Origin: Prorocentrum cordatum
Lineage: Eukaryota; Sar; Dinophyceae; Prorocentrales; Prorocentraceae
DNA: 64,000 bases
Direction of reading: 5' to 3'
Assembly (NCBI GenBank): GCA_963575745.1
Contig: CAUYUJ010019876.1
Location: 65,001 to 129,000 of the forward strand
The stretch's first letter is position 1. Each line of letters begins with the position of its first letter. The notes under the pieces are model-generated. The model saw nothing but the letters and a program-made list of their open reading frames with translations. It was not told where the DNA came from and ran no database searches. Both the position numbers and the translations under genes were made by a program. Of the stretch, positions 396-59,669 are shown one piece after another.

Positions 396-639
396 AATTA
401 ATTCTCGGAAAGGGCGCAGGCCCAGGGTTCTCTTTTAGAGGTTTACCCCCGGATCTGACGGGAAGAGGGCCGGCGGATTTCTTTTGCGATAAATAACGAG
501 TGGGAAGAGGGCCGGCGAATTAAACTTTGAGGTTGTCTCGAGTGAAACGCTTGTTTTTCACAATTTGTTGAGGCTGTCTCGAGCGAAGCGCTTGTTTTGT
601 GTTATAGATTGTCCTCTCGGGGACCAGAATTTATAGGAT

Positions 640-1215
640 CTCTCAAGTGAAATGCTTGGTTTCACGTGCCCAGGTCTTGAGGATGTCTCGAGCGAGACGC
701 TTGGTTTCACGCCTCCAGGTTGCCCAGGCAGAGGTCAAGCGCCAGGATTTGTTGAGAATGTCTCTAGCGAGACGCTTGGTTTCCCGCGTCCTCGTCGCCC
801 AGGCGGATGTCTAGAATGAGGAGGTGTTGAGGAAGTCTCGATCGAGATGCTTGTTTGCACGTGTCCAGGTTACCCAGGCGGATGCCTAGCATGAGGATGT
901 GTTGAGAATGTCTTGGGAGATACGCTTGTTTTCACGTGTCCAGGTCGCCCAGGCGGATGTCTAACATGAAGATGTCTTGAGGATGTCTCGAGCGAGACGT
1001 TTGCTTTCACGTGTACAGGTCACCCAGGCGGACGTCTCACATGAAGATGTGCTGAGGATGTCTCGAGCGAACTACTTGTTTTCACGTGTCCAGTTCGCCC
1101 AGGCGGATACTTAGCATGAGAATGTGTTGAGGATGTGTTAAGCGAAACATTTGTTTTCACGTGTCCAGGTCGCTCGGGCGGATGTCTAGAATGAGGATTT
1201 TGACAGGATGTCTCG
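640..1215 (+). repeat. 75-bp minisatellite array
   Basis: About eight units built of GTCTCGAGCGAAACGCTTG, TTTTCACGTGTCCAGGTC, GCCCAGGCGGATGTCTAGC and ATGAGGATGTGTTGAGGA. The units are diverged from each other. The same array is found at 15090-15310, 33100-33740, 34720-35370, 52490-53125 and 57010-57310, always left of the 410-bp satellite. Confidence 0.8.
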
Positions 1216-1219
1216 AGCG

Positions 1220-1990
1220 AAACGCTTGTCCCCAGCACGTTCCGTAGCGCGTCCCCTTGGCACGTCCCGCGGTGCGTGCCCATGGCACGTCCCCTGGCAT
1301 GTCGCCTGGCGCGTCCCTTGGGACGTTCTGCGGCGCGTCCTCCTGGCATGTCCCCTCTGTCAATTAGCTCTGGGGCAGATACTATGTGTTCAGGCAGCTC
1401 GAGCTTAAGATCCAGATCAGTTCGGTCAGGACTCGGATGCAAAGGAGGACTCGATCCACGACGCTATAGAGCACAACCGCGGCATGGCACATCGCAATTC
1501 AGTACGGTGCAGCACAGCACAGATTTCGGCACGGTACATCAAGATCGATACAATCAGCATTGCTACTTGGCACGTTCCTTGGCACGTTCCGTGGGGCGTC
1601 CCTTGGCGAGTCCCTCTGGCACGTCGCGTGGCGCGTCCCCTGGCACATTCCGTGGCACATCCATTGGCACGTTCCGTAGCGCGTCCCTTTGGCACGTCCT
1701 ACGGTGCGACCCCATGGCACGTTCCCTGGCACGTCGCCTGGCGCGTCCCTTGGGACGTTTCGCGGCGCGTCCTCCTGGCATGTCCCCTTGTCAATTAGCT
1801 CTGGGGCAGATACTATGTGTTCAGGCAGCTCGAGCTTAAGATCCAGATCAGTTCGGCCAGGACTCGGATGCAGAGGACTCGATCCACGACGCTATAGAGC
1901 ACAACCGCGGCATGGCACATCGCAATTCAGCACGGTGCAGCACAGCACAGCCCTCGGCACCGTACATCAAGATCGATACAATCAGCATTG
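1220..1990 (+). repeat. ~410-bp satellite, two copies
   Basis: Each unit has a GC-rich part of short subrepeats (GGCACGTCCCCTGGCACGTC, GCGCGTCCCTTGGGACGTT) and a unique part containing GTGTTCAGGCAGCTCGAGC, CAGATCAGTTCGGTCAGGAC and GGCATGGCACATCGCAATTC. Further copies lie at 13665-14910, 15310-16075, 33745-34510, 35380-37140 (interrupted), 53130-53900, 57300-58200 and 58810-59590. Confidence 0.85.
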
Positions 1991-2473
1991 CACTTGCCCG
2001 TCACCCAATCAGGTGTCTTTGAAAACGCTGCCATGCGTTACATTTCTACATTCCTTTCCGGGTTTGTTGGTCGATCATGTTTTTTCCCGGAAAGGGCGTA
2101 GGCCCAGGGTTCTCTTTTAGTAGGTTTACCCCCGGATCTGACGGGAAGAGGGCCGGCGGATTTCTTTTGCGATAAATAACGAGTGGGAAGAGGGCCGGCG
2201 AATTAAATTTTGAGGATGTCTCGAGCGAAACGCTTGTTCCCGGAAAGGGCATGGGCCCAGGGTTTTCTTTTAGTAGGTTTAAAGAACCCCCCCGGTTTTT
2301 GCCGGCGAATTTTTGTGCGATAAATAACGAGGTAAAGTGCTGATTACCTAACAGCTTTTGCTGATAGGTTTCTAGTGGTGTCAAAAGAGAGCAGCAGATG
2401 ACTCCACAGGGGGGTCGGGGCGGGACCCGGGGAGCTGTGTCCGAACTCGTGTCCGAATGCGTTTTTCGCAAAC

Positions 2474-2900
2474 AGTCACACACTTCGTGCTCTTCGACCT
2501 CCCAGAACTCCATTCCCGGGCCACATTCTGAATGCCTGGAGCCAACTGTAGGCCACTTCGTGCTCTTCGACTTCCCAGAACTCCATTCCCGGGCCACATT
2601 TTGGAATGCCCGGAGCCAACTGTAGGCCACTTCGTGCTCTTCGACTTCCCAGAACTCCATTCCCGGGCCACATTTTGATGCCCGGAGCCAACTGTAGGCC
2701 ACTTCGTGCTCTTCGAGTTCCCAGAACTCCATTCCCGGGCCACATTTTGAATGCCCGGAGCCAACTGTAGGCCACTTCGTGTCTTCGAGTTCCCAGAACT
2801 CCATTCCTGGGCATGATTTTGAATGCCCGGAGCCAACTGTAGGCCACTTCGTGTTCTTCGAGTTCCCAGAACTCCATTCCCGGGCCACATTTTGAATGCT
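2474..2900 (+). repeat. 73-bp tandem repeat
   Basis: Six units containing CACTTCGTGCTCTTCGA, CCCAGAACTCCATTCCCGGG and GCCCGGAGCCAACTGTAGG. A single partial unit recurs inside the following hexanucleotide array at about 3170-3205. Translations from either strand are repeat artefacts. The stretch 2340-2470 just before it is unique and shows no gene. Confidence 0.9.
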
Positions 2901-4075
2901 GAGGCAGGCTGATGCTGAGGCTGGGGCAGGCTGAGGCTGAGGCCGAGGCTGAAGGCAGACTGAAACTGAGGCTGAGGCTGAGGCAGGCTGAGGCTGAGGC
3001 TGAGGCAGGCTGATGCTGAGGCAGGCTGAGGCTGAGGCTGAGGCTGATGCAGGCTGAGGCTGAGGCAGGCTGAGGCTGAGGCCGAGGCTGAAGGCAGACT
3101 GAGGCTGAGGCTGAAGCAGGCTGAGGCTGAGGCTGAGGCAGGCTGAGGCTGAGGCTGAGGGCAGGCTAGTTCCCAGAACTCCATTCCCGGGCCACATTTT
3201 GAATGCTGAGGCAGGCTGATGCTGAGGCTGAGGCAGGCTGAGGCTGAGGCTGAGGCTGAGGCTGAGGCGAGGCTGAAGGGCTGAGGCTGAGGCTGAGGCT
3301 GGCTGAGGCTGAGGCTGAGGCTGAGGCTGAGGCTGAGGCTGAGGCTGAGGCTGAGCTGAGGCAGGCTGAGGCTGAGGCTGAAGGCTGAGGCTGAGGCTGA
3401 GGCTGAGGCTGCTGAGGCTGAGGCTGAGGCAGGCTGAGGCTGAGGCTGAGGCAGGCTGAGGCTGAGGCTGAGGCAGGCTGATGCTGAGCAGGCTGAGGCT
3501 GAGGCTGAGGCTGATGCAGGCTGAGGCTGAGGCAGGCTGAGGCAGGCCGAGGCTGAAGGCAGACTGAGGCTGAGGCTGAAGCAGGCTGAGGCTGAGGCTG
3601 AGGCAGGCTGAGGCTGAGGCTGACGCAGGCTGATGCTGAGGCAGGCTGAGGCTGAGGCTGAGGCTGATGCAGGCTGAGGCTGAGGCGGGCTGAGGCCGAG
3701 GCCGACGGCAGACGGCAGACTGAGGCTGAGGCTGAGGCAGGCTGAGGCTGAGGCTGAGGCTGATGCAGGCTGAGGCAGGCTGAGGCTGAGGCTGAGGCTG
3801 AGGCTGAGGCAGGCTGTTGCTGAGGCAGGCTGAGGCTGAGGCTGAGGCTCATGCAGGCTGAGGCTGAGGCAGCCTGAGGCTGAGGCCGAGGCCGACGGCA
3901 GGCTGAGGCTGAAGCTGAAGCAGGCTGAGGCTGAGGCCGAGGCAGGCTGAGGCTGAGGCTGAGGCAGGCTGAGGCTGAAGCAGGCTGAGGCTGAGGCAGG
4001 CTAATGCTGAGGCAGGCTGAGGCTGAGGCAGACTGAGGCTGAGGCAGGCTGAGGCTGAGGCTGTGACTGCGACTG
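2900..4075 (+). repeat. (GAGGCT)n hexanucleotide array
   Basis: About 1.17 kb of GAGGCT repeats with regular GAGGCAGGCT variants and occasional GCCGAGGCCGA units. On the minus strand it reads as long Ser-Ala-Gln-Pro-Leu runs, which I do not regard as protein. 4076-4210 is unique with no recognisable feature. Confidence 0.9.
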
Positions 4076-4209
4076 CCGTTGCCACTGCGACTGTTATCGC
4101 GAATGCGACTACGACTGCGAGAACAGCAGAATTCTACAACTGGCTTCTCATCTGAATCTTAAGGGGAATGCTTCCAGATATGCTCCTACACATCGCTGTT
4201 AGGTTGCTT

Positions 4210-5360
4210 TGCCAGGATTTTTTTTTTTTTGTTTTTTTGTTGTTTTGAGCAAGTACGTTTCGTGCGTGCCCGCTCGAGGAAAGTGCGCCCCCCATTTCGG
4301 ATCCTCGATAAAAAAACGGGGTCCGCAGACCCCCGTTTTCCTTAGTAAGAAAAGAGTGTGCGGATCGTTTTTCGCAGAATCCTCGACAAATTACGGGGTC
4401 TGGAGCCCCGACCGCGACGCAGAAGAGCGCCCCGCGCGCAGGAATTCCGAGGATGTATCGCGCGGGCCGCGTCCCGTGCGCAGGAATTTAGAGGATGTCT
4501 CTACTAATTCGCTTGTTTTGCCAGGATTTCTTTGGATTTTCACAGGATGTCTCGAGCGAAACGGTTGTTTTCCATAATTTGTTGAGGATGTCTCGAGCGA
4601 AACGCTGGTTTTGCAAAATTGGGGGGATTTCTCGAGCGGGAGCCCCGTGGGTGGCCAGAATTGAGAGGATGTCTCAAGCGAAATGTTTGTTTTCACGCCC
4701 CGCGCGCAGGAATTCGGAGGATGTATCGCGCGTGCCGCGCACCGCGCGCAGGAATTTCGAGGATGTCTCGGCTAATTCGTTTGTTTAGCAAGGATTTCTT
4801 TGGATTTTCACAGGATGTCTCGAGCGAAACGTTTGTTTTTTTTTCGACAATTTGTTGAGGATGTCTCGAGCGAAACGCTGGTTTTGCAAAATTGGGGGGA
4901 TGTCTCGAGCGGGAGCCTCGTGGGTGGCCAGAATTGAGAGGATGTCTCAAGCGAAATTTTTGTTTTCACGTCCCGCTCGCAGGAATTCAAAGGATGTCTC
5001 GCGCGTGCCGCGTCCCGCGCGCAGGAATTTTGAGGATGTCTCGGCTAATTCGTTTGTTTAGCGAGGATTTCTTTAGATTTTGACAGGATGTCTCGAGCGA
5101 AACGCTTGTTTTTCATAATTTGTCGAGGATGTCTCGGCTAATTCGTTTGTTTAGCGAGGATTTCTTTATATTTTCACAGGATGTCTCGAGCGAAACGCTT
5201 TTTTTTTTGTTTGTTTGTTTGTTTGTTTTTTTCCATAATTTGTTGAGGATGTCTCTACTAATTTGTTTGTTTTGCCAGGAATTCTGCGGATTTTGACAGG
5301 ATGTCTCGAGCGAAACGCTTGTTTTCCAGAATTTTTTGAGGATGTCTCGAGCGAAACGCT

Positions 5361-5391
<31 letters not shown>

Positions 5392-6250
5392 AAAAGAAAA
5401 ACAATGCGTTTCGTGCGTGCCCGCTCGAGGAAAGTGCGCCCCCATTTCGGATCCTAGATAAAAAACGGGGTCCGCAGACCCCCGTTTTCCTTAGTAAAAA
5501 AAGAGGGTGCGGAGCGTTGTTTTCGCAGAATCCTAGACAAATTACGGGGTCTGGAGCGCCGACCGCGACGCAGAAGAGCGCCCCGCGCGCAGGAATTCCG
5601 ATGATGTATCGCGCGGGCCGCGTCCCGCGCGCAGGAATTTCGAGGATGTCTCGACTAATTCGCTTGTTTTGCCAGGATTTCTTTGGATTTTCACAGGATG
5701 TCTCGAGCGAAACGGTTGTTTTCCAGAATTTGTTGAGGATGTCTCGAGCGAAACGCTGGTTTTGCAAAATTGGGGGGGTGTCTCGAGCGGGAGCCCCGTG
5801 GGTGGCCAGAATGGAAAGGATGTCTCAAGCGAAATGCTTGTTTTCGCGCCCCGCGCGCAGGAATTCGGAGGATGTATCGCGCGTGCCGCGCACCGCGCGC
5901 AGGAATTTCGAGGATGTCTAGGCTAATTCGTTTGTTTAGCAAGAATTTCTTTGGATTTTCACAGGGTGTCTCGAGGGAAACGCTTGTTTTTTACAGAATT
6001 AGTCGAGGATGTCTCGAGCGAAACGCTGGTTTTGCAAAATTGGGGGGGTGTCTCGAGCGGGAGCCCCGTGGGTGGCCAGAATTGAGAGGATGTCTCAAGC
6101 GAAATGCTTGTTTTCACGCCCCGCTCGCAGGAATTCAGAGGATGTCTAGCGCGTGCCGCATCCCGCGCGCAGGAATTTCGAGGATGTCTCGGCTAATTCG
6201 TTTGTTTAGCGAGGATTTCTTTAGATTTTCACAGGATGTCTCGAGCGAAA
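4210..6250 (+). repeat. Dispersed CTCGAGCG repeat array, with 1.15-kb duplication
   Basis: Variable 40-60-bp units with the core GAGGATGTCTCGAGCGAAAC, alternating with CGCGCGCAGGAATTCCGAGG and GGATTTCTTTGGATTTTCAC modules. A block from about 4255 recurs from about 5405 (offset near 1150 bp), including the hairpin AAAACGGGGTC-CGCA-GACCCCCGTTTT and the GACCGCGACGCAGAAGAGCG module. The same modules occur in the type II mosaic elements at 17037, 19370 and 28190. A TA run lies at 5361-5386. No gene is seen. Confidence 0.8.
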
Positions 6251-6251
6251 C

Positions 6252-6252
<1 letters not shown>

Positions 6253-6333
<81 letters not shown>

Positions 6334-6359
6334 TTTTTTTTTTTTGGTTATATATATAT

Positions 6360-6390
<31 letters not shown>

Positions 6391-6395
6391 AAAAA
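6253..6395 (+). repeat. 80-T homopolymer followed by TA microsatellite
   Basis: Eighty consecutive T at 6253-6332, a short T-rich stretch, then TA repeats to about 6390 and a short A run. It separates a CTCGAGCG unit from the left end of the 77-bp satellite element at 6407. Confidence 0.95.
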
Positions 6396-6406
6396 AAACA
6401 AATTAT

Positions 6407-9380
6407 CCTGGCGAAAGACCCAACCATAAGCAATTGTTGGTAACGCGTTGTGGGTGCCGCTTTCGGTGGGGCTCCATATGGGGCCACGAAGCGCTGCCTT
6501 GGATAGGGGGAACCGCATGCGGACTGCGCCACCGGGGCGGGCCTTCGGTGGAGCTCCCTATGGGGCTACGAAACGCTGCCCTGGGTGGGGGAACCGCGTG
6601 CGAACTGCGCCACTGGGGCCTTCGGTGGAGCTCCCTATGGTGCCACGAAACGCTGCCCTGGGCGGGGGAAGCGCATGCGAACTGCGCCACGGGGGCTTTC
6701 GGTGGAGCTCCCCATGGGGCCACGAAGCGCTGCCCTGGGTGGGGGAACCGCATGCGAGGCAGCCACTGGGGCCTCCGGTGGAGCTCCCTATGGGGCCACG
6801 AAACGCTGCCCTGGGTGGGGGAACCGCATGCGAACACCCCCACTGGGGCCTTCGGTGGAGCTCCCTATGGGGCCACGAAACGCTGCCCTGGGTGGGGGAA
6901 CCGCATGCGAACACCCCCACTGGGGCCTTCGGTGGAGCTCCCTATGGGGCCACGAAACGCTGCCCTGGGTGGGGGAACCGCATGCGAACACCCCCACTGG
7001 GGCCTTCGGTGGAGCTCCCTATGGGGCCACGAAACGCTGCCCTGGGTGGGGGAACCGCATGCGAACACCCCCACTGGGGCCTTCGGTGGAGCTCCCTATG
7101 GGGCCACGAAACGCTGCCCTGGGTGGGGGAACCGCATGCGAACACCCCCACTGGGGCCTTCGGTGGAGCTCCCTATGGGGCCACGAAACGCTGCCCTGGG
7201 TGGGGGAACCGCATGCGAACACCCCCACTGGGGCCTTCGGTGGAGCTCCCTATGGGGCTACGAAACGCTGCCCTGGGTGGGGGAACCGCATGCGAACACC
7301 CCCACTGGGGCCTTCGGTGGAGCTCCCTATGGGGCCACGAAACGCTGCCCTGGGTGGGGGAACCGCATGCGAACACCCCCACTGGGGCCTTCGGTGGAGC
7401 TCCCTATGGGGCTACGAAACGCTGCCCTGGGTGGGGGAACCGCATGTGGACACCCCCACTGGGGCCTTCGGTGGAGCTCCCTATGGGGCCACGAAACGCT
7501 GCCCTGGGTGGGGGAACCGCATGTGGACACCCCCACTGGGGCCTTCGGTGGAGCTCCCTATGGGGCCACGAAACGCTGCCCTGGGTGGGGGAACCGCATG
7601 TGGACACCCCCACTGGGGCCTTCGGTGGAGCTCCCTATGGGGCCACGAAACGCTGCCCTGGGTGGGGGAACCGCATGTGGACACCCCCACTGGGGCCTTC
7701 GGTGGAGCTCCCTATGGGGCCACGAAACGCTGCCCTGGGTGGGGGAACCGCATGTGGACACCCCCACTGGGGCCTTCGGTGGAGCTCCCTATATGGGGCC
7801 ACGAAACTCTGCCCTGGGTGGGGGAACCGCATGTGGACACCCCCACTGGGGCCTTCGGTGGAGCTCCCTATGGGGCCACGAAACGCTGCCCTGGGTGGGG
7901 GAACCGCATGTGGCACCCCCACTGGGGCCTTCGTGGAGCTCCCTATGGGCCTGTAAACGCTGCTGGTGGGAACCCGGGGAACCGCATTGGACCCCCACGT
8001 GGGGCCTTCGGTGGGGCTCCCTATGGGGTCCACGAAACGCTGCCCTGGGTGGGGGGAACCGCATGTGACACCCCCACTGGGGCCTTCGTGGAGCGTCCCT
8101 TGGGCCACAAACGCTGCCCTGGGTGGGGGAACCGCATGCGAACACCCCCACTGGGGCCTTCGGTGGAGCTCCCTATGGGGCTACGAAGCGCTGCCCTGGG
8201 TGGGGGGAACCGCATGCGAACACCTCCACTGGGGCCTTCGGTGGAGCTCCCTATGGGGCCACGAAACGCTGCCCTGGGTGGGGGAACCGCATGCGAACAC
8301 CCCCCCTGGGGCCTTCGGTGGAGCTCCCTATGGGGCTACGAAGCGCTGCCCTGGGTGGGGGAACCGCATGCGAACACCCCCACTGGGGCCTTCGGTGGAG
8401 CTCCCTATGGGGCCACGGAGCGCTGCCCTGGGTGGGGGAACCGCATGCGAACACCCCCACTGGGGCCTTCGGTGGAGCGCCCTATGGGGCCACGAAACGC
8501 TGCCCTGGGTGGGGGAACCGCATGCGAACACCCCCACTGGGGCCTTCGGTGGAGCTCCCTATGGGGCTACGAAACGCTGCCCTGGGTGGGGGAACCGCAT
8601 GCGAACACCCCCACTGGGGCCTTCGGTGGAGCTCCCTATGGGGCCACGAAACGCTGCCCTGGGTGGGGGAACCGCATGCGAACACCCCCACTGGGGCCTT
8701 CGGTGGAGCTCCCCTATGGGGCCACGAAACGCGGGCCTGGTGGGGGACCCGCATGTGGCACCCCCACATCACGGGGCGCTTTCGGTTGAGCTCCCTATGG
8801 GGCTACGAAAGCCTTCCCTGGTGGAGGGAACCGATTTGGACACCCCCACTGGGGCCCTTCGGTGGAGCTCCTATGGGCCACAAAACTGCCCTCGTGTGGG
8901 AGTAACCGCATGTGGACACCCCCACTGGGGCCTTCGGGTGGAGTCTCCTATGGGGGCAGCAAAACGCTGGCCCTGGGTTGTGGGAACCGCATGTGGACAC
9001 CCCCACTGGGGCCTTCGGTGGAGCTCCCTATGGGGCCACGAAACGCTGCCCTGGGTGGGGGAACCGCATGTGGACACCCCCACTAGGGCCTTCGGTGGAG
9101 CTCCCTATGGGGCCACGAAACGCTGCCCTGGGTGGGGGAACCGCATGTGGACACCCCCACTGGGGCCTTCGGTGGAGCTCCCTATGGAGCCACGAAGCGC
9201 TGTAATGGGTGGGTGAAACGCACAGAGGAGGGAGGAGAGGGAGGGAGGAGAGGAGGAGGAGGGAGGAGGGAGGAGGAGGGAGGAGGAGGAGGAGAGGAGA
9301 GGAGGAGAGGAGGAGAGGAGAGGACGCGGGCACCGTCTCTTCAAAACGAGGACCCAACACCACAGGATGGTTGGGAAAAA
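6407..9380 (+). mobile_element. 77-bp satellite element, copy B
   Basis: Left terminal sequence CCTGGCGAAAGACCCAACCAT at 6407, then about 35 tandem 77-bp units (GGCCTTCGGTGGAGCTCCC, TATGGGGCCACGAAACGCTG, CCCTGGGTGGGGGAACCGCA) to about 9215. A GGGAGGAGGA purine tract follows, then the right terminal sequence CGTCTCTTCAAAACGAGG...CACAGGATGGTTGGG at 9375. CCCAACCAT at the left and ATGGTTGGG at the right are inverted. Because 77 is not a multiple of 3 and the unit lacks stops in some frames, very long open frames appear; they are not genes. Confidence 0.75.
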
Positions 9381-9385
9381 ACACA

Positions 9386-9768
9386 TAATTTGTTGAGGAT
9401 GTCTCGACTAATTCGCTTGTTTTGCCAGGAATTCTGCGGATTTTGACAGGATGTCTCGAGCGAAACGCTTGGTTTCCAGATTTTTTTGAGGATGTCTCGA
9501 GCGAAACGCTTTTTTTGTTGTTTCTTTTTTGTTTGCAAAATTGGGGGATGTCTCGAGCGGGAGCCTCGTGGGTGGCCAGAATTGAGAGGATGTCTCGCGC
9601 GTGCCGCGTCCCGCGCGCATGAATTTTGAGGATGTCTCGGCTAATTCGTTTGTTTAGCGAGGGTTTCTTTGGATTTTGACAGGATGTCTCAAGCGACGCG
9701 CTTGTTTTGCATAATTTGTTGAGGCTGTCTCGACTAACTCGCTTGTTTTGCCAGGATTTCGTGTGTGT

Positions 9769-9829
<61 letters not shown>

Positions 9830-10090
9830 CTTCAGCACTTGTTGAGGATGTCTCGAGCGAAACGCTGGTTTTGCAAAATTGGGGGGATGTCTCGAGCGGG
9901 GGTCTCGTGGGGTGCCAGAATTCACAGGATGTCTCAGGCGAAATGCTTGCTTTCACGTCCCGCTCGCAGGAATTCCGAGGATGTCTCGCGCGTGCCGCGT
10001 CCCGCGCGCAGGAGTATTGAGGATGTCTCGAGAAATTTGTTTGTTTGGCGATGATTTCTTGTGATTTTGTCAGGATTTCTCGAGCGAAAC
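9386..10090 (+). repeat. CTCGAGCG repeat spacer between inverted satellite elements
   Basis: The same unit types as 4210-6250. A run of 60 T occupies 9770-9829. It separates copy B (forward) from copy C (reverse), so 9190-9380 and 10098-10250 are near-perfect inverted repeats around this spacer. Confidence 0.8.
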
Positions 10091-10097
10091 GTTTTTT

Positions 10098-10357
10098 CCC
10101 AACCATCCTGTGGTGTTGGGTCCTCGTTTTGAAGAGACGGTGCCCGCGTCCTCTCCTCTCCTCCTCTCCTCCTCTCCTCCTCCTCCCCCTCCTCCTCCCT
10201 CCTCCTCCCTCTCCTCCCTCCTCTCTGCGTTTCACCCACCCATTACAGCGCTTCGTGGCTCCATCGGGAGCTCCACCGAAGGCCCCAGTGGGGGTGTTCG
10301 CATGCGGTTCCCCCACCCAGGGCAGCGTTTCGTGGCCCCATAGGGAGCTCCACCGAA

Positions 10358-10392
<35 letters not shown>

Positions 10393-11878
10393 AGTGGGGG
10401 TGTCCACATGCGGTTCCCCCACCCAGGGCAGCGTTTCGTGGCCCCATAGGGAGCTCCACCGAAGGCCCCAGTGGGGGTGTCCACATGCGGTTCCCCCACC
10501 CAGGGCAGCGTTTCGTGGCCCCATAGGGAGCTCCACCGAAGGCCCCAGTGGGGGTGTCCACATGCGGTTCCCCCACCCAGGGCAGCGTTTCGTGGCCCCA
10601 TAGGGAGCTCCACCGAAGGCCCCAGTGGGGGTGTCCACATGCGGTTCCCCCACCCAGGGCAGCGTTTCGTAGCCCCATAGGGAGCTCCACCGAAGGCCCC
10701 AGTGGGGGTGTCCACATGCGGTTCCCCCACCCAGGGCAGCGTTTCGTGGCCCCATAGGGAGCTCCACCGAAGGCCCCAGTGGGGGTGTCCACATGCGGTT
10801 CCCCCACCCAGGGCAGCGTTTCGTAGCCCCATAGGGAGCTCCACCGAAGGCCCCAGTGGGGGTGTCGCATGCGGTTCCCCCACCCAGGGCCGCGTTTCGT
10901 GGCCCCATAGGGAGCTCCACCGAAGGCCCCAGTGGGGGTGTCGCATGCGGTTCCCCCACCCAGGGCAGCGTTTCGTAGCCCCATAGGAGCTCCACCGAAG
11001 GCCCCAGTGGGGGTGTCCACATGCGGTTCCCCCACCCAGGGCAGCGTTTCGTAGCCGCCCCATGGGAGTCCACCGAAGGCCCCAGTGGGGGTGTCGCATG
11101 CGGTCCCCCACCCAGGGCAGCGTTTCGTGGCCCCATAGGGAGCTCCACCGAAGGCCCCTGTGGGGGTGTTCGCATGCGGGTTCCACACCCAGGGCAGCGT
11201 TTCGTGGCCCCATAGGGAGCTCCACCGAAGGCCCCAGTGGGGGTGTTCGCATGCGGTTCCCCCACCCAGGGCAGCGTTTCGTAGCCCCATAGGGAGCTCC
11301 ACCGAAGGCCCCAGTGGGGGTGTTCGCATGCGGTTCCCCCACCCAGGGCAGCGTTTCGTGGCCCCATAGGGAGCTCCACCGAAGGCCCCAGTGGGGGTGT
11401 TCGCATGCGGTTCCCCCACCCAGGGCAGCGTTTCGTGGCCCCATAGGGAGCTCCACCGGGCCCCAGTGGGGCCCCTCGTGCGGTCTCGCACCCAGGGCAG
11501 GCGTCCCCCACGTAGGGCAGCGCTTAGGGAGCTCCACCGTGGCGCCCCACCAAGGGGGGAGCTCCACCGAAAGCGTGGCCCCACAGGGAGCTTTCGCATG
11601 CGCTTCCCCCGGCCCCAGGGTGGGGCTGCGTTTGCATGCGTTTCTACCCAGGGCAGCGCCACCATCGGCCCAGTGGCGCAGTTCGCATGCGGTTCCCCAC
11701 CCAGGGCTCGTTTCGTGGCCCCATAGGGAGCTCCACCGAAGGCCCCAGTGGGGGTGTTCGCATGCGGTTCCCCCCATCCACTACCCAGATCGTGGCGCCG
11801 CCATATGGAGCCCCCACGAAGGGGCACCCACAACGCGTTTACCAACAATTGCTTTATGGTTGGGTCCTTTCCGCCAGG
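10098..11878 (-). mobile_element. 77-bp satellite element, copy C
   Basis: Begins CCCAACCATCCTGTGGTG and ends ATGGTTGGGTCCTTTCCGCCAGG, the reverse complement of the two ends of copy B. About 19 units of 77 bp are present; those past 11450 are degraded. The first full unit is broken by 31 consecutive G (10358-10388). Copy D follows after only 9 bp. Confidence 0.75.
10358..10388 (+). repeat. 31-G homopolymer
   Basis: It sits where other units read CCGAAGGCCCCAG, so GG has become 31 G. It could be true slippage expansion or an assembly or sequencing artefact. Confidence 0.95.
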
Positions 11879-11887
11879 TAATTTTCA

Positions 11888-13605
11888 CCAACCATCCTGT
11901 GGTGTTGGGTCCTCGTTTTGAAGAGCCGGTCCCCGCGTTTCCTTCCTCCTCGCCCCGCCCTCCTCCCTGTCCCCCTCGGTTCCCCACACCCAGGGCAGCG
12001 TTTCGTAGCCCCATAGGGAGCTCCACCGAAGGCCCCAGTGGGGGTGTCCACATGCGGTTCCCCCACCCAGGGCAGCGTTTCGTAGCCCCAGAGGGAGCTC
12101 CACCGAAGGCCCCAGTGGGGGTGTCCACATGCGGTTCCCCCACCCAGGGCAGCGTTTCGTAGCCCCAGAGGGAGCTCCACCGAAGGCCCCAGTGGGGGTG
12201 TCCACATGCGGTTCCCCCACCCAGGGCAGCGTTTCGTAGCCCCAGAGGGAGCTCCACCGAAGGCCCCAGAGGGGGTGTCCACATGCGGTTCCCCCACCCA
12301 GGGCAGCGTTTCGTGGCCCCATAGGGAGCTCCACCGAAGGCCCCAGTGGGGGTGTCCACATGCGGTTCCCCCACCCAGGGCAGCGTTTCGTAGCCCCATA
12401 GGGAGCTCCACCGAAGGCCCCAGTGGGGGTGTCCACATGCGGTTCCCCCACCCAGGGCAGCGTTTCGTAGCCCCATAGGGAGCTCCACCGAAGGCCCCAG
12501 TGGGGGTGTCCACATGCGGTTCCCCCACCCAGGGCAGCGTTTCGTGGCCCCATAGGGAGCTCCACCGAAGGCCCCAGTGGGGGTGTCCACATGCGGTTCC
12601 CCCACCCAGGGCAGCGTTTCGTGGCCCCATAGGGAGCTCCACCGAAGGCCCCAGTGGGGGTGTTCGCATGCGGTTCCCCCACCCAGGGCAGCGTTTCGTA
12701 GCCCCATAGGGAGCTCCACCGAAGGCCCCAGTGGGGGTGTCCACAAGCGGTTCCCCCACCCAGGGGCAGCGTTTCGTAGCCCCATAGGGAGCTCCACCGA
12801 AGGCCCCAGTGGGGGTGTCCACATGCGGTTCCCCCACCCAGGGCAGCGTTTCGTAGCCCCAGAGGGAGCTCCACCGAAGGCCCCAGTGGGGGTGTCCGCA
12901 TGCAGTTCCCCCACCCAGGGCAGCGTTTCGTAGCCCCAGAGGGAGCTCCACCGAAGGCCCCAGTGGGGGTGTCCACATGCGGTTCCCCCACCCAGGGCAG
13001 CGTTTCGTGGCCCCATAGGGAGCTCCACCGAAGGCCCAGTGGGGGTGTCCACATGCGGTTCCCCCACCCAGGGCAGCGTTTCGTAGCCCCATAGGGAGCT
13101 CCACCGAAGGCCCCAGTGGGGGTGTCCACATGCGGTTCCCCCACCCAGGGCAGCGTTTCGTAGCCCCAGAGGGAGCTCCACCGAAGGCCCCAGTGGGGGT
13201 GCCCACATGCGGTTCCCCCACCCAGGGCAGCGTTTCGTAGCCCCATAGGGAGCTCCACCGTAGGCCCCAGTGGGGCTGCCCTCATGCGGTTCCCCCACCC
13301 AGGGCAGCGTTTCGTAGCCCCAGAGGGAGCTCCACCGTAGGCCCCAGTGGGGGTGCCCGCATGCGGTTCCCCCACCCAGGGCAGCGTTTCGTGGCCCTAC
13401 AGGGAGCTCCACCGAAGGCCCCAGTGGGGCTGCCTGCATGCGGTTCCCCCACCCAGGGCAGCGTTTCGTAGCCCCATAGGGAGCTCCACCGAAGGCCCCA
13501 GTGGGGGTGTTCGCATGCGTCTCCACTACCCAGAGGTAGCGCCGCCGAAAACGATATTCACACTTGCGGTATTCACAGTTGCATATGGTTGGGTCCTTCG
13601 CCAGG
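11888..13605 (-). mobile_element. 77-bp satellite element, copy D
   Basis: Starts CCAACCATCCTGTGGTGTTG, passes a pyrimidine-rich tract, then about 20 units of 77 bp, and ends ATGGTTGGGTCCTTCGCCAGG. Same orientation as copy C. Units mix GTGTCCACATGC and GTGTTCGCATGC variants, and GCCCCAGAGG replaces GCCCCATAGG in several. Confidence 0.75.
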
Positions 13606-13619
13606 CTAATTTTTTTTCG

Positions 13620-14986
13620 TGGGGTGCCAGAATTCAGAGGATGTCTCAGGCGAAATGCTTGTTTTCACGTCGCGTGGCGCGTCCCCTGGCACATCCCGTG
13701 GCGCATCCATTGGCACGTTCCGTAGCGCGTCCCCTTGGCACGTCCCGCGGTGCGACCCCATGACACGTCCCCTGGCACGTCGCCTGGCGCATCCCTTGGG
13801 ACGTTTCGCGGCGCGTCCTCCTGGCATGTTCTCTTGTCCATTAGCTCTGGGCCAGCTACTATGTGTTCTGGCAGCTCGAGCTTACGATCCAGATCAGTTC
13901 GGTCAGGACTCGGATGCAAAGGCGGACTCGATCCACGAGGCTATAGAGCACAATCGCGGCATGGCACATCGCAATTCAGCACGGCACAGCACAGCACAGC
14001 CCTCGGCACGGTACATCAAGATCGATACACTCAGCATTGCAATTTGGCACGTTCCACGTTCCGTGGGGCGTCCCTTGGCGAGTCCCCCTGGCACGTCGCG
14101 TGGCGCGTCCCCTGGCACATCCCGTGGCACATCCATTGGCACGTTCCGTAGCGCGTCCCCTTGGCACGTCCCGCGGTGCGACCCCATGGCACGTCCCCTT
14201 GGCACGTCGCCTGGCGCATCCCTTGGGACGTTTCGCGGCGCGTCCTCCTGGCATGTCCCCCTGTCAATTAGCTCTGGGGCAGCTACTATGTGTTCAGGCA
14301 GCTCGAGCTTCAGATCCAGATCAGTTCGGTCAGGACTCGGATGCAAAGGAGGACTCGATCCACGAGGCTATAGAGCACAATCGCGCCATGGCACATCGCA
14401 ATTCAGCACGGCGCAGCACAGCACAGCCCTCGGCACGGTACATCAAGATCGATACACTCAGCATTGCAATTTGGCACGTTCCTTGGCACGTTCCGTGGGG
14501 CGTCCCTTGGCGAGTCCCCCTGGCACGTCGCGTGGCGCGTCCCCTGTCACATCCCGTGGCACATCCATTGGCACGTTCCGTAGCGCGTCCCCTTGGCACG
14601 TCCCGCGGTGCGACCCCATGGCACGTCCCTTGGCACGTCGCCTGGCGCGTCCCTTGGGACGTTTCGCGGCGCGTCCTCCTGGCATGTCCCCCTGTCAATT
14701 AGCTCTGGGGCAGCTACTATGTGTTCAGGCAGCTCGAGCTTCAGATCCAGATCAGTTCGGTCAGGACTCGGATGCAAAGGAAGACTCGATCCACGACGCT
14801 ATAGAGCACAACCGCGGCATGGCACATCGCAATTCAGCACGGTGCAGCACAGCACAGCCCTCGGCACGGTACATCAAGGTCGATACAATCAGCATTGCAT
14901 TTGCCCGTCACCCAATCAGGTGTCTTTAAAAACGTTGCCATGCGTTACATTTCTATATTCTTTTCCGGGTTCGTGGGTCGATCATG
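13620..14986 (+). repeat. ~410-bp satellite, three copies, with mosaic right end
   Basis: Units start near 13665, 14065 and 14490. The last is followed by CCCGTCACCCAATCAGGTG, the type I right-end module, closing in GGGTCGATCATG at 14986. The short CTCGAGCG-type stretch at 13620-13665 continues the array seen before copy C. Confidence 0.8.
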
Positions 14987-32639: not shown

Positions 32640-32846
32640 GAGGGTGACGACCGAGGCGCCAATGCGAGGTCCCGAGTTAGCGGAGTAGCAGCTGAGCACT
32701 GTGATGACGTTCGGCCTTTTTCCCGGAAAGGGCTTAGGCCCAGGATTCTCTTTTAGCTGTTTATCCCCGGACCTGACTTGAGGTGGGCCGGCGGGTTTAT
32801 TCCCTGATCAATATCGCGGTCGAGGTGGGCCGGCGGAAATATTTTT

Positions 32847-49042: not shown

Positions 49043-49125
49043 CCCGGAGAGGGCGTGGGCCCGGGGTTCTCTTTTAGCTTGTAAGCTGCCCCCCGTGCCA
49101 TGACTGAGGTGGGCCGGCATAGGAC
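49043..49125 (+). mobile_element. Orphan left end of a mosaic element
   Basis: CCCGGAGAGGGCGTGGGCCC, GGTTCTCTTTTAG, then GCCATGACTGAGGTGGGCC as in other left ends, but the similarity stops at GCCGGC and no right end is nearby. Confidence 0.6.
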
Positions 49126-51470: not shown

Positions 51471-51474
51471 AATA

Positions 51475-52229: not shown

Positions 52230-53984
52230 CCCGGAAAGGGCATAAGCCCATGGTTCTCTTTCAGTTGGTTTACCTCCGGGTTTGACTTGAGGTGGGCCGG
52301 CGAATTTCTTTTGCGATAAATATCGAGGTCGAGGTGGGCGGGCGAATTGCAATTTGAGGATGCCCCTAGCGAAACGCTTGTTTTTCAGAATTTGTTGAGG
52401 ATGTCTCGAGCGAAACGCTTGTTTTGTGTTATAGATTGTCCCTTCCTGGGGACCAGATTTCAGAGAATCTCTCAAGTGAACTGCTTGTTTTCATGTGCCC
52501 AGGTCTTGAGGATGTCTCGAGCGAGACGCTTGTTTTCACGCCTTCAGGTTGCTCATGCAGAGGTCTATCGCCAGGATTTGTTGAGGATGTCTCGAGCTAG
52601 ACGCTTGGTTTCACGCGTCCTCGTCGCCCAGGCGGATGTCTAGCATGAGGATGTGTTGAGGAAGTCTCGATCGAGATGCTTGTTTGCACGTGTCCAGGTT
52701 GCCCAGGCGGATGCCTAGCATGAGGATGTGATGAGAATGTCTCAAGAGATACGCTTGTTTTCACGTGTCCAGGTCGCCCAGGCGGGTGTCTAACATGAAG
52801 ATGTGTTGAGGATGTCTCGAGCGAGACGTTTGCTTTGACGTGTACAGGTCGCCCAGGCGGATGTCTAGAATGAGGAGGTGTTGAAAACGTCTCGAGCGAA
52901 ACGCTTTTTTTCACGTGCCCAGGTCACCCACGCGGACGTCTCACATGAAGATGTGTTGAGGACGTCTCGAGCGAACCACTTGTTTTCACGTGTCCAGTTC
53001 GCCCAGGCAGATGTCCAGCATGAGAATGTGTTGTAGATGTGTTGAGCGAAACGCTTGTTTGCACGTGTCCAGGTCGCTCAGGCGGATGTCTAGCATCAGC
53101 ATTTTGACAGGATGTCTCGAGCGAAACGCTTGTCCCCAGCACGTTCCACAGCGCGTCCCCTTGGCACGTCCCGCGGTGCGTCCCCATGGCACGCCCCCTG
53201 GCACGTCGCTCGGCGCGTCCCTTGGGACGTTCCGCGGCGCGTCCTCCTGGCATGTCCCCCTGTCAATTAGTTTTGGGGCAGCTACTATGTGTTCAGGCAG
53301 CTCGAGCGTAAGGTCCAGATCAGTTCGGTCAGGACTCGGATGCAAAGGAGGACTCGATCCACGAGGCTATAGAGCATAGTCGCGGCATGGCACATCGCAA
53401 TTCAGCACGGCGCAGCACAGAACAGACTTCGGCACGGTACATTAAGAGCGATACACTCAGCATTGCAACCTGGCACGTTCCTTGGCACGTTTCGTGGGGC
53501 GTCCCTTGGCGAATCCCCGTGGCACGTCGCGTGGCGCGTCCCCTGGCACATCCCGTGGCACATCCATTGGCACGTTCCGTAGCGCGTCCCCTTGGCACGT
53601 CCCGCGGTGCGACCCCACGGCATGTCCCCTGGCACGTCGCTTGGCGCGTCCCTTGGGACGTTTCGCGGCGCGTCCTCCTGGCATGTCCCCCTGTCAATTA
53701 GCTCTGGGGCAGCTACTATGTGTTCAGGCAGCTCGAGCTTAAGATCCAGATCAGTTCGGTCAGGACTTGGATGCAAAAGAGGACTCGATCCACGACGCTA
53801 TAGAGCACAATCGCGGCATGGCACATCGCAATTCAGCACGGCGCAGCACAGCACAGCCTTGGCACGGTGCATGAAGATCGATACACTCCGCATTGCGTTT
53901 GCCCGTCACCCAATCAGGTGTCTTTGAAAACGTTGCCATGCGTTACATTTCTATATTCCTTTCCGGGTTCGTGGGTCGATCATG
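52230..53984 (+). mobile_element. Mosaic element 10, type I
   Basis: Left end CCCGGAAAGGGCATAAGCCC after GCGCCTGTTTTT; right end GGGTCGATCATG followed by TTTTTTTGCCGTGC. The interior has the GAGGTGGGCCGGCGAA / GAGGTGGGCGGGCGAA pair, CTCGAGCG units, 75-bp array (52490-53125), two 410-bp satellite units (53130-53900) and the CACCCAATCAGGTG right module. Confidence 0.88.
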
Positions 53985-54360: not shown

Positions 54361-55923
54361 CCCGGAAAGGGCTTAAGCCCAGGGTTCTCTTTTAGTTTGT
54401 AAACTTAGTCCCCCGGTGCCTGCTTGAAGGAGGCCGGCGAATTGCCGGCGAATTTTTCCCTGATAAATAACGAGGTCGAAGGAGGCCGGCGAATTTTTCC
54501 CTGATAAATAACGAGCCCGAGAATTAAAATTTGAGGATGTCTCGAGCGAAACGCTTGTTTTTGAGCGCCGGCGAATTAAAATTTGAGGATGTCTCGAGCG
54601 AAACGCTTGTTTTTCAGAAAATGGTGAGGATGTCTCGAGCGAAACGCTTGTTTTGTGTTATAGATTGTCCTCTCCTGGGGACCTGAATTCTGAGGACCAC
54701 CTCCCAGCACGACCACCCCCCCAGCACGACCACCCCAGCACGACCACCCCCCAGCACGACCACACCCCAGCACGACCACTCCCCAGCACGACCACACCCC
54801 AGCACGACCCCACCCCAGCACGACCCCACCCTAGCACGACCACACCCCAGCACGATCACACCCCAGAACGACCACACCCCAGCACGACCCCACCCCAGCA
54901 CGACCCCACCCCAGCACGACCACACCCCAGCACGACCACACCCCAGCAGGACCCCACCCCAGCACGACCCCACCCCAGCACGGCCCCACCCCAGCAAGAC
55001 CACACCCCAGCACGACCACACCCCAGCACGACCTCACCACAGCACGACCACACCCCAGCACGATCACGCCCCAGCACGACCACGCCCCAGCACGACCACT
55101 CCCCAGCACGACCACCTCCCAGCACGACCACCCCCCCAGCACGACCACCCCCCAGCACGACCACCCCCCAGCACGACCACACCCCAGCACGACCACACCC
55201 CAGCACGACCACACCCCAGCACGACCACACACCCAGCACCAGCACGACCACACCCCAGCACGACCCCACCACCCCACCCCAGCACGACCACACCCCAGCA
55301 CGACCACACCCCAGCACGACCCCACCCCAGCACGACCCCACCCCAGCACGACCACACCCCAGCACGACCACACCCCAGCAGGACCCCACCCCAGCACGAC
55401 CCCACCCCAGCAAGACCACACCCCAGCACGACCACACTCCAGCACGACCTCACCACAGCACGACCACTCCCCAGCACGACCACGCCCCAGCACGACCACG
55501 CCCCAGCACGACCACTCCCCAGCACGACCACCTCCCAGCACGACCACCCCCCCAGCACGACCACCCCCCACGCACGCACCACACCCCAGCACGACCACAG
55601 CACGACCACACCCCAGCACGACCACACCCCAGCACGACCACACCCAGTCGCACCCCCGTGGAATGTTTCGTGGGGTGTCTCGTGGAATGTTTCGTGGGGT
55701 GTCTCGTGGAATGTTTCGTGGGGTGTCTCGTGGAATGTTTCGCGGGGTGTCTCGTGGAACGTTTCGCGAGGTGTCTCGTGGAATGTTTCGCGAGGTGTCT
55801 CGTGGGATGTTTCGCGGGGTGTCTCGTGGGATGTTTTGTGAGATGTCGCCCAGTTGGGTATCGTGAAAACGTGACCATGCTGCACATGTCTATATCCCTT
55901 TCCGGGTTCGTGGGTCCATCATG
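54361..55923 (+). mobile_element. Mosaic element 11, type II
   Basis: Left end CCCGGAAAGGGCTTAAGCCC; the GAAGGAGGCCGGCGAA module is present twice, and the TTTTTCCCTGATAAATAACG module is repeated. Then CTCGAGCG units, a long CAGCACGACCACACCC array (54705-55650, containing two similar halves), 24-bp TCGTGGAATGTTTCG units (55660-55840) and the right end GGGTCCATCATG followed by TTTCTGCC. Confidence 0.88.
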
Positions 55924-56300: not shown

Positions 56301-56302
56301 AA

Positions 56303-58280
56303 CCCAGGGTTCTTTTTGAGTTGGTTTACCTCCGGGTTTGACTTGAGGTGGACTGGCGAATTTCTTTTGCGATGAATATCGAGGTCGAGGTGGGTCGGCG
56401 AATTCAATTTTGAGGATGTCCCTAGCGAAACGCTGATGTTTGAAATCGCGATCGAGAAATCACAGGGTGCGAGACACGTTTTGGTCAGGAGCATAATGCC
56501 TATAGATTGGCCCATCCAGGGGTACGTATCTGTCTGTTTTTACGTATGTTCCTACAGATGGGCCCTCTCGTTACCTATATATTGGCTCTCTCCAAGGGCA
56601 CGAATACGTGTGCTTTTACGTGGATTCCTATAGAATTGCCCTCTCCAGGAATACGTGTGTTCCCATAGATTGGCCCTCTCCAGGGGCACGCATGCGTGTG
56701 TTTTTTACGTATGTTCCTATAGATGGGCCCTTTCATTACCTATAGATTGGCATTCTCCAGGGGCACGAATTCGTAGGTTTTTACATCTATTCCTATATAT
56801 TGGCCCTCTCCAGGATTACGTGTGTTGCCATAGATTGGCCCTTTCCAGGGGCACGAATCCGTGTGTTTTTACGTATATGTTTGAGAATGTCTCGAGCGAA
56901 ACGCTGGTGTTTCAGAATTTGTTGAGGATGTCTCGAGCGAAACGCTTGTTTTGTGTTATATATTGTCCTCTCCTGGGGACCTGAATTCAGAGGATCTCTC
57001 AAGTGAAATGCTTGTTTTCACGTGCCCAGGTCTTGAGAATGTCTCGAGCGAGACGCTTAGTTTCACGCCTCCAGGTTGCCCAGACAGATTTCTAGCATGA
57101 GGATTTGTTGAGGATGTCTCGAACCGGAGGCTTCTTTTCACGTGTCCAGGTCGCCCAGGCGGATGTCTAGCATGAGGATGTGTCGAGGAAGTCTCGATCG
57201 AGACGCTTGTTTGCACGTGTCCAGGTTGTCCAGGCGGATGTCCAGCATGAGAATATGCTGAGAACGTCTTGAGCGAAACGCGTGTTTTCACGTGTCCAGG
57301 TCGCCCAGGCACAGCACAGCCTTCGGTACGGTACATCAATATCAATATCGATACCCTTAGCATTGCAGCCTGGCATGCTGCCTGGCACGTTCCGCGGAGC
57401 GTCCCGTGGCGAGTCCCCCTGGCACGTCGCGCGGTGCACGTCCATTGGCTCGTTCCGTAGTGCGTCCCCTTGGCACGTCCCGCGGTGCGTGCCCATGGCA
57501 CGTCCCCTGGCACGTCGCCTGGCGCGTCCCTTGGGACGTTCCGCGGCGCGTCCTCCTGGCATGTCCCCCTGTGGATCAGTTTTGGGGCAGCTACCATCTG
57601 CTCAGGCAGCTCGAGCTTAAGATCCAGATCAGTTCGGTCAGGACTCGGATGCAAAGTGGACTCGATCCACAACGCTATATAGAGCACAATCGTGGCATGG
57701 CACATCGCAGTTCAGCACGGCCCAGCACAGCACAGCCGTCGGCACAGTACATCAAGATCGATACACTCAACATTGCACCTTGGCACGTTCTTTGGCGCGT
57801 TCCGTGGCGAGTCCCCCTGGCACGTCGCGCGGCGCGTCCCACGTCCCGCGGCACGTCCATTGGCACGTTCCGTAGCGCGTCCCCTTGGCATGTCCCGCGG
57901 TGCGTCCCCATGGCACGTCCCCTGGCACGTCGTCTGGCGCGTCCCTTGGGACGTTCCGCGGCGCGTCCTCCTGGCATGTCCCCTCTGTCGCTTAGTTTTG
58001 GGGCAGCTACCATCTGCTCAGGCAGCTCGAGCTTAAGATCCAGATCAGTTCGGTCAGGACTCGGATGCCAGGGAGGACTCGATCCACAACGCTATATGGA
58101 GCACAATCGCGGCATGGCACGTGGCAATTCAGCACGGCGCAGCACAGCACAGCCCTCGGCACAGTACATCAAGATCGATACATTCAGCATTGCATTTGCA
58201 CGTCGCCCAATGAGGTGTCTTTGAAACGTTGCCATGCCTTACATTTCTATATTCCTTTCCGGATTCGTGGGTCGATCATG
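56303..58280 (+). mobile_element. Mosaic element 12, type I, 5'-truncated
   Basis: Starts at CCCAGGGTTC (CCCGGAAAGGGC missing), has the GAGGTGGACTGGCG / GAGGTGGGTCGGCG pair, an unusual 53-bp array (56485-56880), the 75-bp array (57010-57310), two 410-bp satellite units (57300-58200) and the right end GGGTCGATCATG. Confidence 0.75.
56485..56880 (+). repeat. ~53-bp minisatellite
   Basis: Units of CCTATAGATTGGCCCTCTCC, AGGGGCACGAATACGTGTG and TTTTTACGTATGTT with deletions. Found only in this element, so cargo arrays differ between copies. Confidence 0.85.
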
Positions 58281-59669
58281 TTGCGTGCCCGCTCGAGGAT
58301 GGCGCACTTTGCGTGCCGACTCTCTGAGGATGTCTCGGGCGAAACGTTTGTTCTGCAGCGCTTGAAAGGCTTGGGCGCTCCAGGATGCCCAGGTGGTTCT
58401 GGGAGTCCGGTTGGACCGTTATTTATTAAGGATCGTGGCCCTGGGAGCGCAGATGCCGTGTAATTTGCAAAGGATCCTGACCCTGCGAGCGCGGACGCAG
58501 CGTAATAGACGAGGGGTCCTGGCCCTGGAGGCGCGAACCCAGCGTAATTCACACGGGATCGTGGCCCTGGGAGCGTGGACACTGCGTCATTCACGAGGGA
58601 GTGCGGCCCTGGGAGCGTGGACACTGCGTCATTCACGAGGGAGCGCGGCCCTGGGAGCGCGGACGCAGCGTCGTTTACGAGGGATCGTGGCCCAGGGAGA
58701 GCGGAAGCAGCGTAATTTACAAGGGGTTGAGCGACACGCTTGTTTTCACGTGCCCAGATCGCCCAGGCGGATGTCTAGCATGAGGATTTGGGCAGGATGC
58801 TTCGAGCGAAACGCTTGTCCCCAGCACGTTCCGTAGCGCGTCCCCTTGGCACGTTCCGCGGTGCGTCCCCATGGCGCGTCCCTTAGCACGTCGCCTGGGG
58901 CGTCCCTTGGGACGTTCCGCGGCGCGTTCTTCTGGCATGTTCCCTTGTCAATTAGTTTTGGGGCAGCTACTATGTGCTCAGGCAGCTCGAGCTTAAGATC
59001 CAGATCAGTTCGGTCAGAACTCGGATGACAGGGAGGACTCGATCCACAACTCTAGAGCACAATCGCGGCATGGCACATCGCATTCGGCACGGCGCAGCAC
59101 AGCACAGCCTTCGGCACAGTACATCAAGACCGATACACTCAGCATTGCAACCTGGCACGTTCCCTGGCACGTTCCGTGGCGCGTCCCGTGGCGAGTCTTT
59201 CTGGCACGTCGCGTGGCGCGTCCCTTGGCACGTCCCGTGGCACGTCCATTGGCACGTTCCGTAGCGCGTCCCCTCGGCACGTCCCGCGGTGCGTCCCCAT
59301 GGCACGTCCCTTGTCATGTCGCCTGGCGCGTCCCTTGAGACGTTCCGCGGCGCGTCCTCCTGGCATGTCCCCCTGTCCATTAGCTCTGGGGCAGCTACTA
59401 TGTGCTGAGGCAGCTCGAGCTTAAGATCCAGATCAGTTCGGTCAGGACTCGGCTGCAAAGGAGGACTCGATCCACAACGCTATATAGAGCACAATCGCGG
59501 CATGGCACATGGCAATTCAGCACGGCGCAGCACAGCACAGCCTTCGGCACAGTACATCAAGATCGATACACTCAGCATTGCATTTGCCCGTCTCCCAATC
59601 AGGTGTCTTTAAAAACACTGCCATGTCTTACATTTCTATATTCCTTTCCGGGTTCGTGGGTCGATCATG
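58281..59669 (+). mobile_element. Mosaic element 13, type I, right part only
   Basis: No left end is visible. Contains a GTGCCCGCTCGAGGA module (as at 4265 and 5412), the ~42-bp GATCGTGGCCCTGGGAGCG array (58430-58725), one 75-bp unit, two 410-bp satellite units (58810-59590) and the right end GGGTCGATCATG. It may be the remainder of an outer element split by element 12. Confidence 0.6.

Follow-up and report, generated by a model that had tools for sequence, protein, structure and literature searches.

Satellite-carrying elements with asymmetric ends in the dinoflagellate Prorocentrum cordatum, candidate members of the Helitron2/Helentron group

Helitron2/Helentron transposons and the HINEs associated with them are characterized by asymmetric terminal inverted repeats, a hairpin at the 5' end, insertion into T-runs with no long duplication of the target and centrally placed tandem repeats, as described in the cited parts of PMC3627910, PMC4067079, PMC5148889 and PMC7492417. 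Satellite arrays or other tandem repeats are found between such ends in HINEs of flies, mites and oyster (passages of PMC4067079 and PMC7492417). No dinoflagellate family of this kind is described in the titles and abstracts among the matches listed, and helitrons are named briefly among the repeats of Symbiodinium in the cited part of PMC9087856. The DNA considered here, called the window, is a stretch of 64,000 nucleotides from Prorocentrum cordatum (contig CAUYUJ010019876.1, positions 65,001 to 129,000 of the forward strand). It harbors a family of minisatellite-bearing elements with fixed ends, which are probably non-autonomous rolling-circle transposons of a dinoflagellate, HINE-like and of the Helitron2/Helentron type. 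The structure of their ends, targets and cargo makes a fairly strong case that they function in the manner of Helitron2; as members of Helitron2/Helentron they are candidates, and this membership is unproven. The family carries a familiar theme into a little-studied group of organisms and is probably not a new kind of element. Dinoflagellate genomes are large and repeat-rich, and with ends defined by sequence, and with rules for insertion and for cargo, what appears to be a minisatellite jungle would become a countable mobile family, and the question of how minisatellites spread in dinoflagellates would become testable.

An earlier reading of this DNA from its letters only (the sequence-only reading) had proposed at least 13 blocks with fixed ends and had taken them for non-autonomous mobile elements with satellite cargo, and both proposals are borne out. 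Profiles of the two ends were run on both strands of the window; they were made from these same copies, so strongly decayed ends could escape detection. They recover 13 right ends, all on the plus strand (E 7.1e-21 or better), and 13 left blocks on the same strand, ten of them intact and three cut at the 5' side, with starts at about 16765, 40683 and 56301. The left arm, CCCGGAAAGG, has 18 exact matches on the two strands, against 0.42 expected in shuffles, and the right-end motif has 11 matches with three mismatches or fewer, against 0.00 expected. Matching by order and nesting gives 12 left/right pairs and leaves a left end at 49043 and a right end at 59669 unpaired. These two were considered as the ends of one large nested element; this was rejected because the left end belongs to class II by type and the right end at 59669, with its cargo, to class I, and both are therefore listed as orphans. 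The ten outermost paired elements account for 29,386 of the 64,000 bases (nested DNA counted, orphans excluded). Six intact copies have no interruption and measure 1.05 to 1.76 kb. The copies share conserved end blocks of about 130 bp on the left and 85 bp on the right. Mobility is supported by the termini that the copies have in common, by nesting, by the clean empty sites of two copies and by the confinement of the cargo to elements. E1 and E2 stand head to tail, with TTTTTT alone between them. The sample is one window and its copies are related, so the counts given throughout are not counts of independent events. The elements, assigned to the two subfamilies (class I and class II) described below, are the following:

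404..2079, plus strand: E1, intact, class I
2086..16151, plus strand: E2, outer element, class I, broken by E3 after 2238
2239..14986, plus strand: E3, class I ends, nested in E2; interior arrays of 72-bp, GCTGAG, 270-bp, 77-bp (large inverted blocks) and 427-bp repeats
16765..17868, plus strand: E4, class II, 5'-truncated, left repeat missing
19081..20379, plus strand: E5, class II
27908..28961, plus strand: E6, class II
32722..37232, plus strand: E7, outer element, class I, contains E8 and element B
32847..34596, plus strand: E8, class I, nested in E7
35646..36668, minus strand: element B, an unrelated satellite-bearing element that breaks a repeat unit of E7
40683..41060, plus strand: E9, class II, 5'-truncated, 378 bp
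49043..49119, plus strand: E10, orphan left end of class II type
52230..53984, plus strand: E11, class I, in host DNA made of TGCCGTGCTCC-type satellite
54361..55923, plus strand: E12, class II, in the same TGCCGTGCTCC-type satellite as E11, with a clean empty-site comparison
56301..58280, plus strand: E13, class I, 5'-truncated
58281..59669, plus strand: class I cargo and orphan right end, no left block found

The inverted repeat between left and right ends, also noticed in the sequence-only reading, is confirmed and is, moreover, asymmetric: CCCGGAAAGG stands at the left terminus and CCTTTCCGGG lies 17 nt inside the right terminus. Left homology begins at the arm, after a T, in all ten intact copies, which places the 5' arm at the 5' terminus as Helitron2 requires. 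At the other end 17 conserved nucleotides, the last six of them ATCATG, lie beyond the right arm in 13 of 13 cases (one with an extra T in between), so that this arm is always subterminal, 17 nt from the end or up to 19 if two Ts are counted as part of the element, where Helitron2 has about 20–30. The arms are exact in eight of the ten intact left ends and ten of the 13 right ends, the remaining five carrying one mismatch, and they pair over 11 bp in class II and 10 bp in class I. Overlapping the last GG of the left arm, GGGC-N4-GCCC is present in all ten intact left ends, with eight forms of N4 and an invariant stem. This conserved motif can form a hairpin that would overlap the 5' arm, as described for Helitron2. 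RNAalifold finds change on both sides in two of the 11 predicted pairs of the left end block, in one sequence each, with a covariation term of 0.01. A canonical Helitron1, with 5'-TC and 3'-CTRR, was considered and rejected, since the 3' ends read ATCATG in 13 of 13 and a 5' TC is obtained only by counting the T before CCCGG.

The sites of insertion are rich in T. Positions -1 and -2 are T in all ten intact copies, +1 is T at all 13 right ends and +2 at 12 of them; TGTT precedes E3 and TCTT precedes E10. Paralogous empty sites allow two clean comparisons. The host satellite of E12 reads GTC-T5-CTG in eight of nine matches, and the filled site has 4+3 = 7 Ts; stretches homologous to the E2 site occupied by E3 read CGCTTG-T5-CA in five of six matches, and the filled site has 2+5 = 7 Ts. 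The gain in both cases is two Ts and nothing more, which is insertion into a T-run without a long target duplication, as in Helitron2, and fits terminal Ts of the element or a 2-bp TT duplication alike. Outside the elements, T-runs exceed A-runs on the plus strand (117 against 71 for runs of four or more, 47 against 21 for five or more), and this excess explains in part the striking orientation of the whole family on one strand. As to the loss of ends, three left blocks are without their 5' terminus and the right end at 59669 is without a left block, against one left end (49043) without a right end. Loss at the 5' side thus prevails four to one, a small number, and this counts in favor of the Helitron2-type reading.

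Alignment of the copies, suggested as a check in the sequence-only reading, separates two subfamilies, whose 5' and 3' types agree in all 12 pairs (seven class I, five class II). Full agreement by chance would have a probability of 0.0013, a figure that applies to related copies and to markers picked after viewing the alignments. Six cargo modules (a 75-mer, a 12-mer, a spacer unit, a 16-mer, a 24-mer and a CGCGCGCAGG unit), matched with mismatches at up to a fifth of positions, occur 246 times, in all 246 cases on the plus strand and within elements, the tail at 58281–59669 being counted as element. The 16-mer and 24-mer are restricted to class II, where they occur in four of the five paired copies (E9 has neither), and the 12-mer and spacer to class I (seven of seven) and the tail at 58281–59669, which shares the 75-mer with six of the seven class I copies. 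The 40-mer and the CGCGCGCAGG unit are common to both classes, and 102 of the 105 matches to the 40-mer lie within elements. Within class I, E1, E7, E8 and E11 are 92–95% identical over 1,649–1,748 aligned columns, arrays included and with E8 excised from E7, while E2 and E13 are 93% identical to each other and 84–88% identical to the other class I copies compared. This identity includes the arrays; at least in class I, therefore, the cargo is copied with the element and not newly gained by each copy. The four class II copies aligned (E4, E5, E6 and E12) are more varied, at 70–94%. The claim that the cargo set differs between copies needs correction, since the sets do not vary freely and are partly specific to the two subfamilies. 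The claim that minisatellites alone lie between the ends was nearly right; to these must be added the end blocks, the class I spacer, the 1.0-kb element B in E7 and the inverted 77-bp blocks in E3. Tandem repeats between conserved end modules are an arrangement known from HINEs, where it is frequent without being universal.

Two further observations concern this satellite DNA. The remaining three 40-mers, on the minus strand at 50520–50671, lie outside any element and may mark a decayed element in the opposite orientation (window 50520–50692). Blocks of the 77-bp satellite in opposite orientation, at 6407–13605 and 1–393 of the window, are bounded by inverted copies of CCTGGCGAARGACCCAACCAT, and the CCTGGCGAARGACCCAACCAT-type boundary ends at 393, ten bases before E1. 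These blocks may represent another satellite-bearing family, or else one large inverted duplication.

Element B, the 1.0-kb minus-strand insert in E7, is unrelated to the family and occurs once in the window. Its borders are fixed by comparison with copies of the site that no insert interrupts, of which the window has 14, nine exact and the others with at most two mismatches. An arm of 11 bp stands at the 5' end of element B and a complementary arm on its 3' side, forming an asymmetric inverted repeat, and minisatellites are present in it too. A 5' hairpin that includes the arm folds with a z-score of -1.8 (12 of 200 shuffles as good), and a 3' hairpin, TACGC-GAA-GCGTA, lies beyond the 3' arm with a z-score of -2.9 (two of 200 as good). 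The junction allows two readings, an insertion between two Ts or a duplication of 4 bp. By these predicted structures element B shows the terminal features of Helitron2 within the same genome, and this counts in favor of the Helitron2-type reading of the family. Its 3' end has no match in the viral sequence collection. A scan for additional arm-plus-hairpin elements, in which 6401–13620 was masked and whose complexity filter would have missed element B, gave two matches, inside the 0–3 range of ten shuffles.

Several described systems come close to the family. In Helitron2, including the non-autonomous Helitron-1N1_CRe of Chlamydomonas, the cited part of PMC3627910 places one arm 0–2 bp from the 5' end and the other subterminally at the 3' end, and describes a 5' hairpin overlapping the arm, 5'-truncated copies and insertion without duplication after TTTT or T-rich tetranucleotides; here four or more Ts precede seven of the ten intact copies. 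Unlike those elements, the present ones have the 3' arm 17 nt from the end rather than about 20–30, have no 3' hairpin and carry minisatellites. The Helentron-associated elements, HINEs and DINE-1 (PMC4067079, in part), resemble them in their TT insertion, variable Ts at the borders, subterminal inverted repeats and, in some cases, tandem repeats, whereas the mite HINEs of the same source have arms about 2–4 nt from the 5' end and 38–60 bp from the 3' end, and a 3' palindrome. Cg_HINE of the Pacific oyster, in the passages of PMC7492417 cited, likewise has single-orientation, satellite-like arrays between two conserved modules and inserts into T-rich sites without duplication; it carries one, exceptionally two, clusters of 100–500 bp monomers, in contrast to several modules with periods of about 12–75 bp here. 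FoHeli of Fusarium oxysporum (PMC5148889, in part) shares asymmetric inverted repeats and nested and tandem copies, and FoHeli3-5 are also without a 3' hairpin, but FoHeli elements are about 5–11 kb long, are recognized by their Rep/helicase genes and have the 3' arm about 20–51 bp from the end. The statement that no known superfamily signature is visible is thus not supported, given the Helitron2/HINE-type arms, 5' hairpin, T-run insertion and central repeats. The companion claim, that no family with these ends is described, is likewise not supported for the kind of element, Helitron2 and HINEs being described, and may hold for the sequence itself, as the family may well be undescribed at that level. 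An exact 20-base stretch of the right end has no match in viral and prokaryote collections, where a dinoflagellate repeat is not expected anyway.

Since asymmetric arms, a 5' hairpin, a T-run target, the lack of a long duplication and tandem repeats occur here as in Helitron2 and HINEs, the elements would be copied in trans by a rolling-circle Rep/helicase. The model proposes that this enzyme, encoded elsewhere, nicks at the 5' end of the element, and that the unwinding of one strand then stops at the pairing of the two arms. The freed strand would be joined into a T-run. The minisatellites would be carried along in this copying, and their array lengths could shift by slippage or unequal exchange.

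Several results weigh against the Helitron2-type reading. The ends are GC-rich, and the 5' hairpin folds no better than shuffles (z 0 to -1.4 in five copies folded). In the stretch from the right arm to the terminus no 3' hairpin is predicted (z +0.61 in three of three right ends folded, 0.08 in another test), and none of 12 predicted RNAalifold pairs in the right end block changes on both sides; both the 3' hairpin of Helitron2 and the 3' palindrome of HINEs are thus missing. A six-frame Pfam search of 4.2 kb of E3 returned matches all below the curated cut-offs and no trace of Rep/helicase. With regard to targets, E1 is preceded by AATT and not by a T-run, the E8 empty site is not clean (5+2 Ts against 3–4 Ts in 11 homologous places, with adjacent bases differing too), and no comparable empty unit was found for E11 (5+7 Ts), which gives no clean comparison. 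Finally, the left end at 49043 is without a right end.

Alternative origins have to be weighed against the same evidence. Cut-and-paste transposons resembling miniature inverted-repeat transposable elements, which have inverted repeats at their termini and would here duplicate a 2-bp TT target, would account for the inverted repeat of 10–11 bp and for the two extra Ts at the two filled sites, which are expected from a TT duplication as well. This is unlikely, because the arms lack symmetry: left ends start at the arm, whereas every one of the 13 right ends extends 17 nt past it to ATCATG, and on this ground a symmetric inverted-repeat transposon was rejected. The loss of ends is, besides, mostly 5', and neither the head-to-tail pair at 2079/2086 nor the satellite cargo is unusual among Helitron-type elements (passages of PMC7492417 and PMC5148889). 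The missing 3' hairpin in the folded right ends and the GC-rich ends could also point to a new superfamily that reached asymmetric ends by convergence and uses a different recombinase, as could the matched direct repeats of the 5' block, which are set about 42 bp apart and have no mention in the cited Helitron2/HINE passages. Such a superfamily is very unlikely, as all the features that fit Helitron2, and the neighboring element B, speak against it.

The T-run could instead be the poly(A) tail, on the minus strand, of short interspersed element (SINE)-like retroposons inserted by target-primed reverse transcription, or the elements could be plus-strand retroposons with a 3' ATCATG end. T-runs at left ends do vary in length, from 2 to 6, and 5' truncation agrees with the plus reading. 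In the minus reading, however, truncation would fall on the poly(A) side, which runs opposite to the rule for SINE-like retroposons. In the plus reading intact copies should show target duplications, whereas E3 and E12 gain only 2 bp, which led to the rejection of SINE- or LINE-type (long interspersed element) retroposons; complementary ends are also unexpected. The 16-bp flush direct repeat around truncated E4, which would suit a retroposon, is exactly as long as one period (16 bp) of the satellite in which E4 sits, which makes it ambiguous, and it is excluded as evidence; the other two truncated copies have no such repeat. The repeat at E4 also resembles the target duplications of 5'-truncated Helitron2 copies described in the cited part of PMC3627910. 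Retroposition is very unlikely on this balance. The least probable origin is that of introner elements, the intron-generating transposons of dinoflagellates. In P. cordatum their definition requires inverted repeats of 8–20 nt and direct repeats of 3–5 nt near both intron ends (PMC10666404, in part), and at E7 an AG stands 10 nt beyond the right end after the pyrimidine stretch TTTCTTGCAG, so that splicing of E7 is possible. Nevertheless, no splice pair is flush with both ends of E7, and most copies lie in satellites or in one another and not in a visible gene, for which reason an introner origin was rejected for most copies.

Within the Helitron2-type reading, the 5' block holds one more regularity. 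Two copies of a repeat ending in GGCG are retained in 11 left blocks (an example is at 27970–28033 of the window) and a single copy in E3 and E10; their spacing is 41–42 bp in ten of the 11, and in the remaining block, that of E12, an internal duplication is present and the spacing is 52 bp. The variable 10-base core of the repeat differs on average by 0.8 bases within a copy and by 2.4 between copies, and none of 20,000 shuffles matched as well within copies, though the copies are related. In four subgroups, each represented by one copy, the two cores of the pair are identical, and the subgroups differ by 2–3 bases. The paired cores could be a pair of binding sites kept in step, or the product of local conversion. 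A bolder proposal, which is doubtful, is that of a dinoflagellate rolling-circle lineage in which these subfamily-specific repeats serve as iteron-like putative docking sites of a replication initiator, each subfamily having its own cargo copied by its own partner. If that were true, the elements would be a main route of minisatellite spread in dinoflagellate genomes.

The open reading frame (ORF) downstream of E7 has an RVT_2 match just under the Pfam cut-off (30.1 against 31.6 bits), and Pfam gives no match in the ORFs upstream of E7 (29370–32639) or in the 108 residues that directly follow it. Past a stop at 32637 the upstream frame is open, and it continues into the downstream frame with 3, 6 or 9 Ts at the joined E7 site, and taking out two Ts leaves the frame open. 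From these frames E7 probably interrupts one Copia-like retrotransposon. Broken ORFs on the minus strand at 22158–25333, with a weak RVT_1 match (E 0.13), are perhaps a non-LTR retrotransposon. An Rfam mir-483 match on the minus strand at 48538–48608 (63.2 bits, gathering threshold 60) falls on a purine/pyrimidine-rich inverted repeat and is most likely a composition artefact. Near the end of the window one feature identifies the host:

62346..62367, plus strand: exact relict of the dinoflagellate spliced leader, where a kinase ORF begins

The 22 nt encode the spliced leader exactly, with the consensus taken from the cited part of PMC12014239, and are the sole match on both strands with up to two substitutions, which marks the host as a dinoflagellate. 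They open a 534-residue ORF with a protein-kinase domain (Pkinase E 2.8e-27; window 62346–63962), and leader and ORF together are probably a dinoflagellate retrogene.

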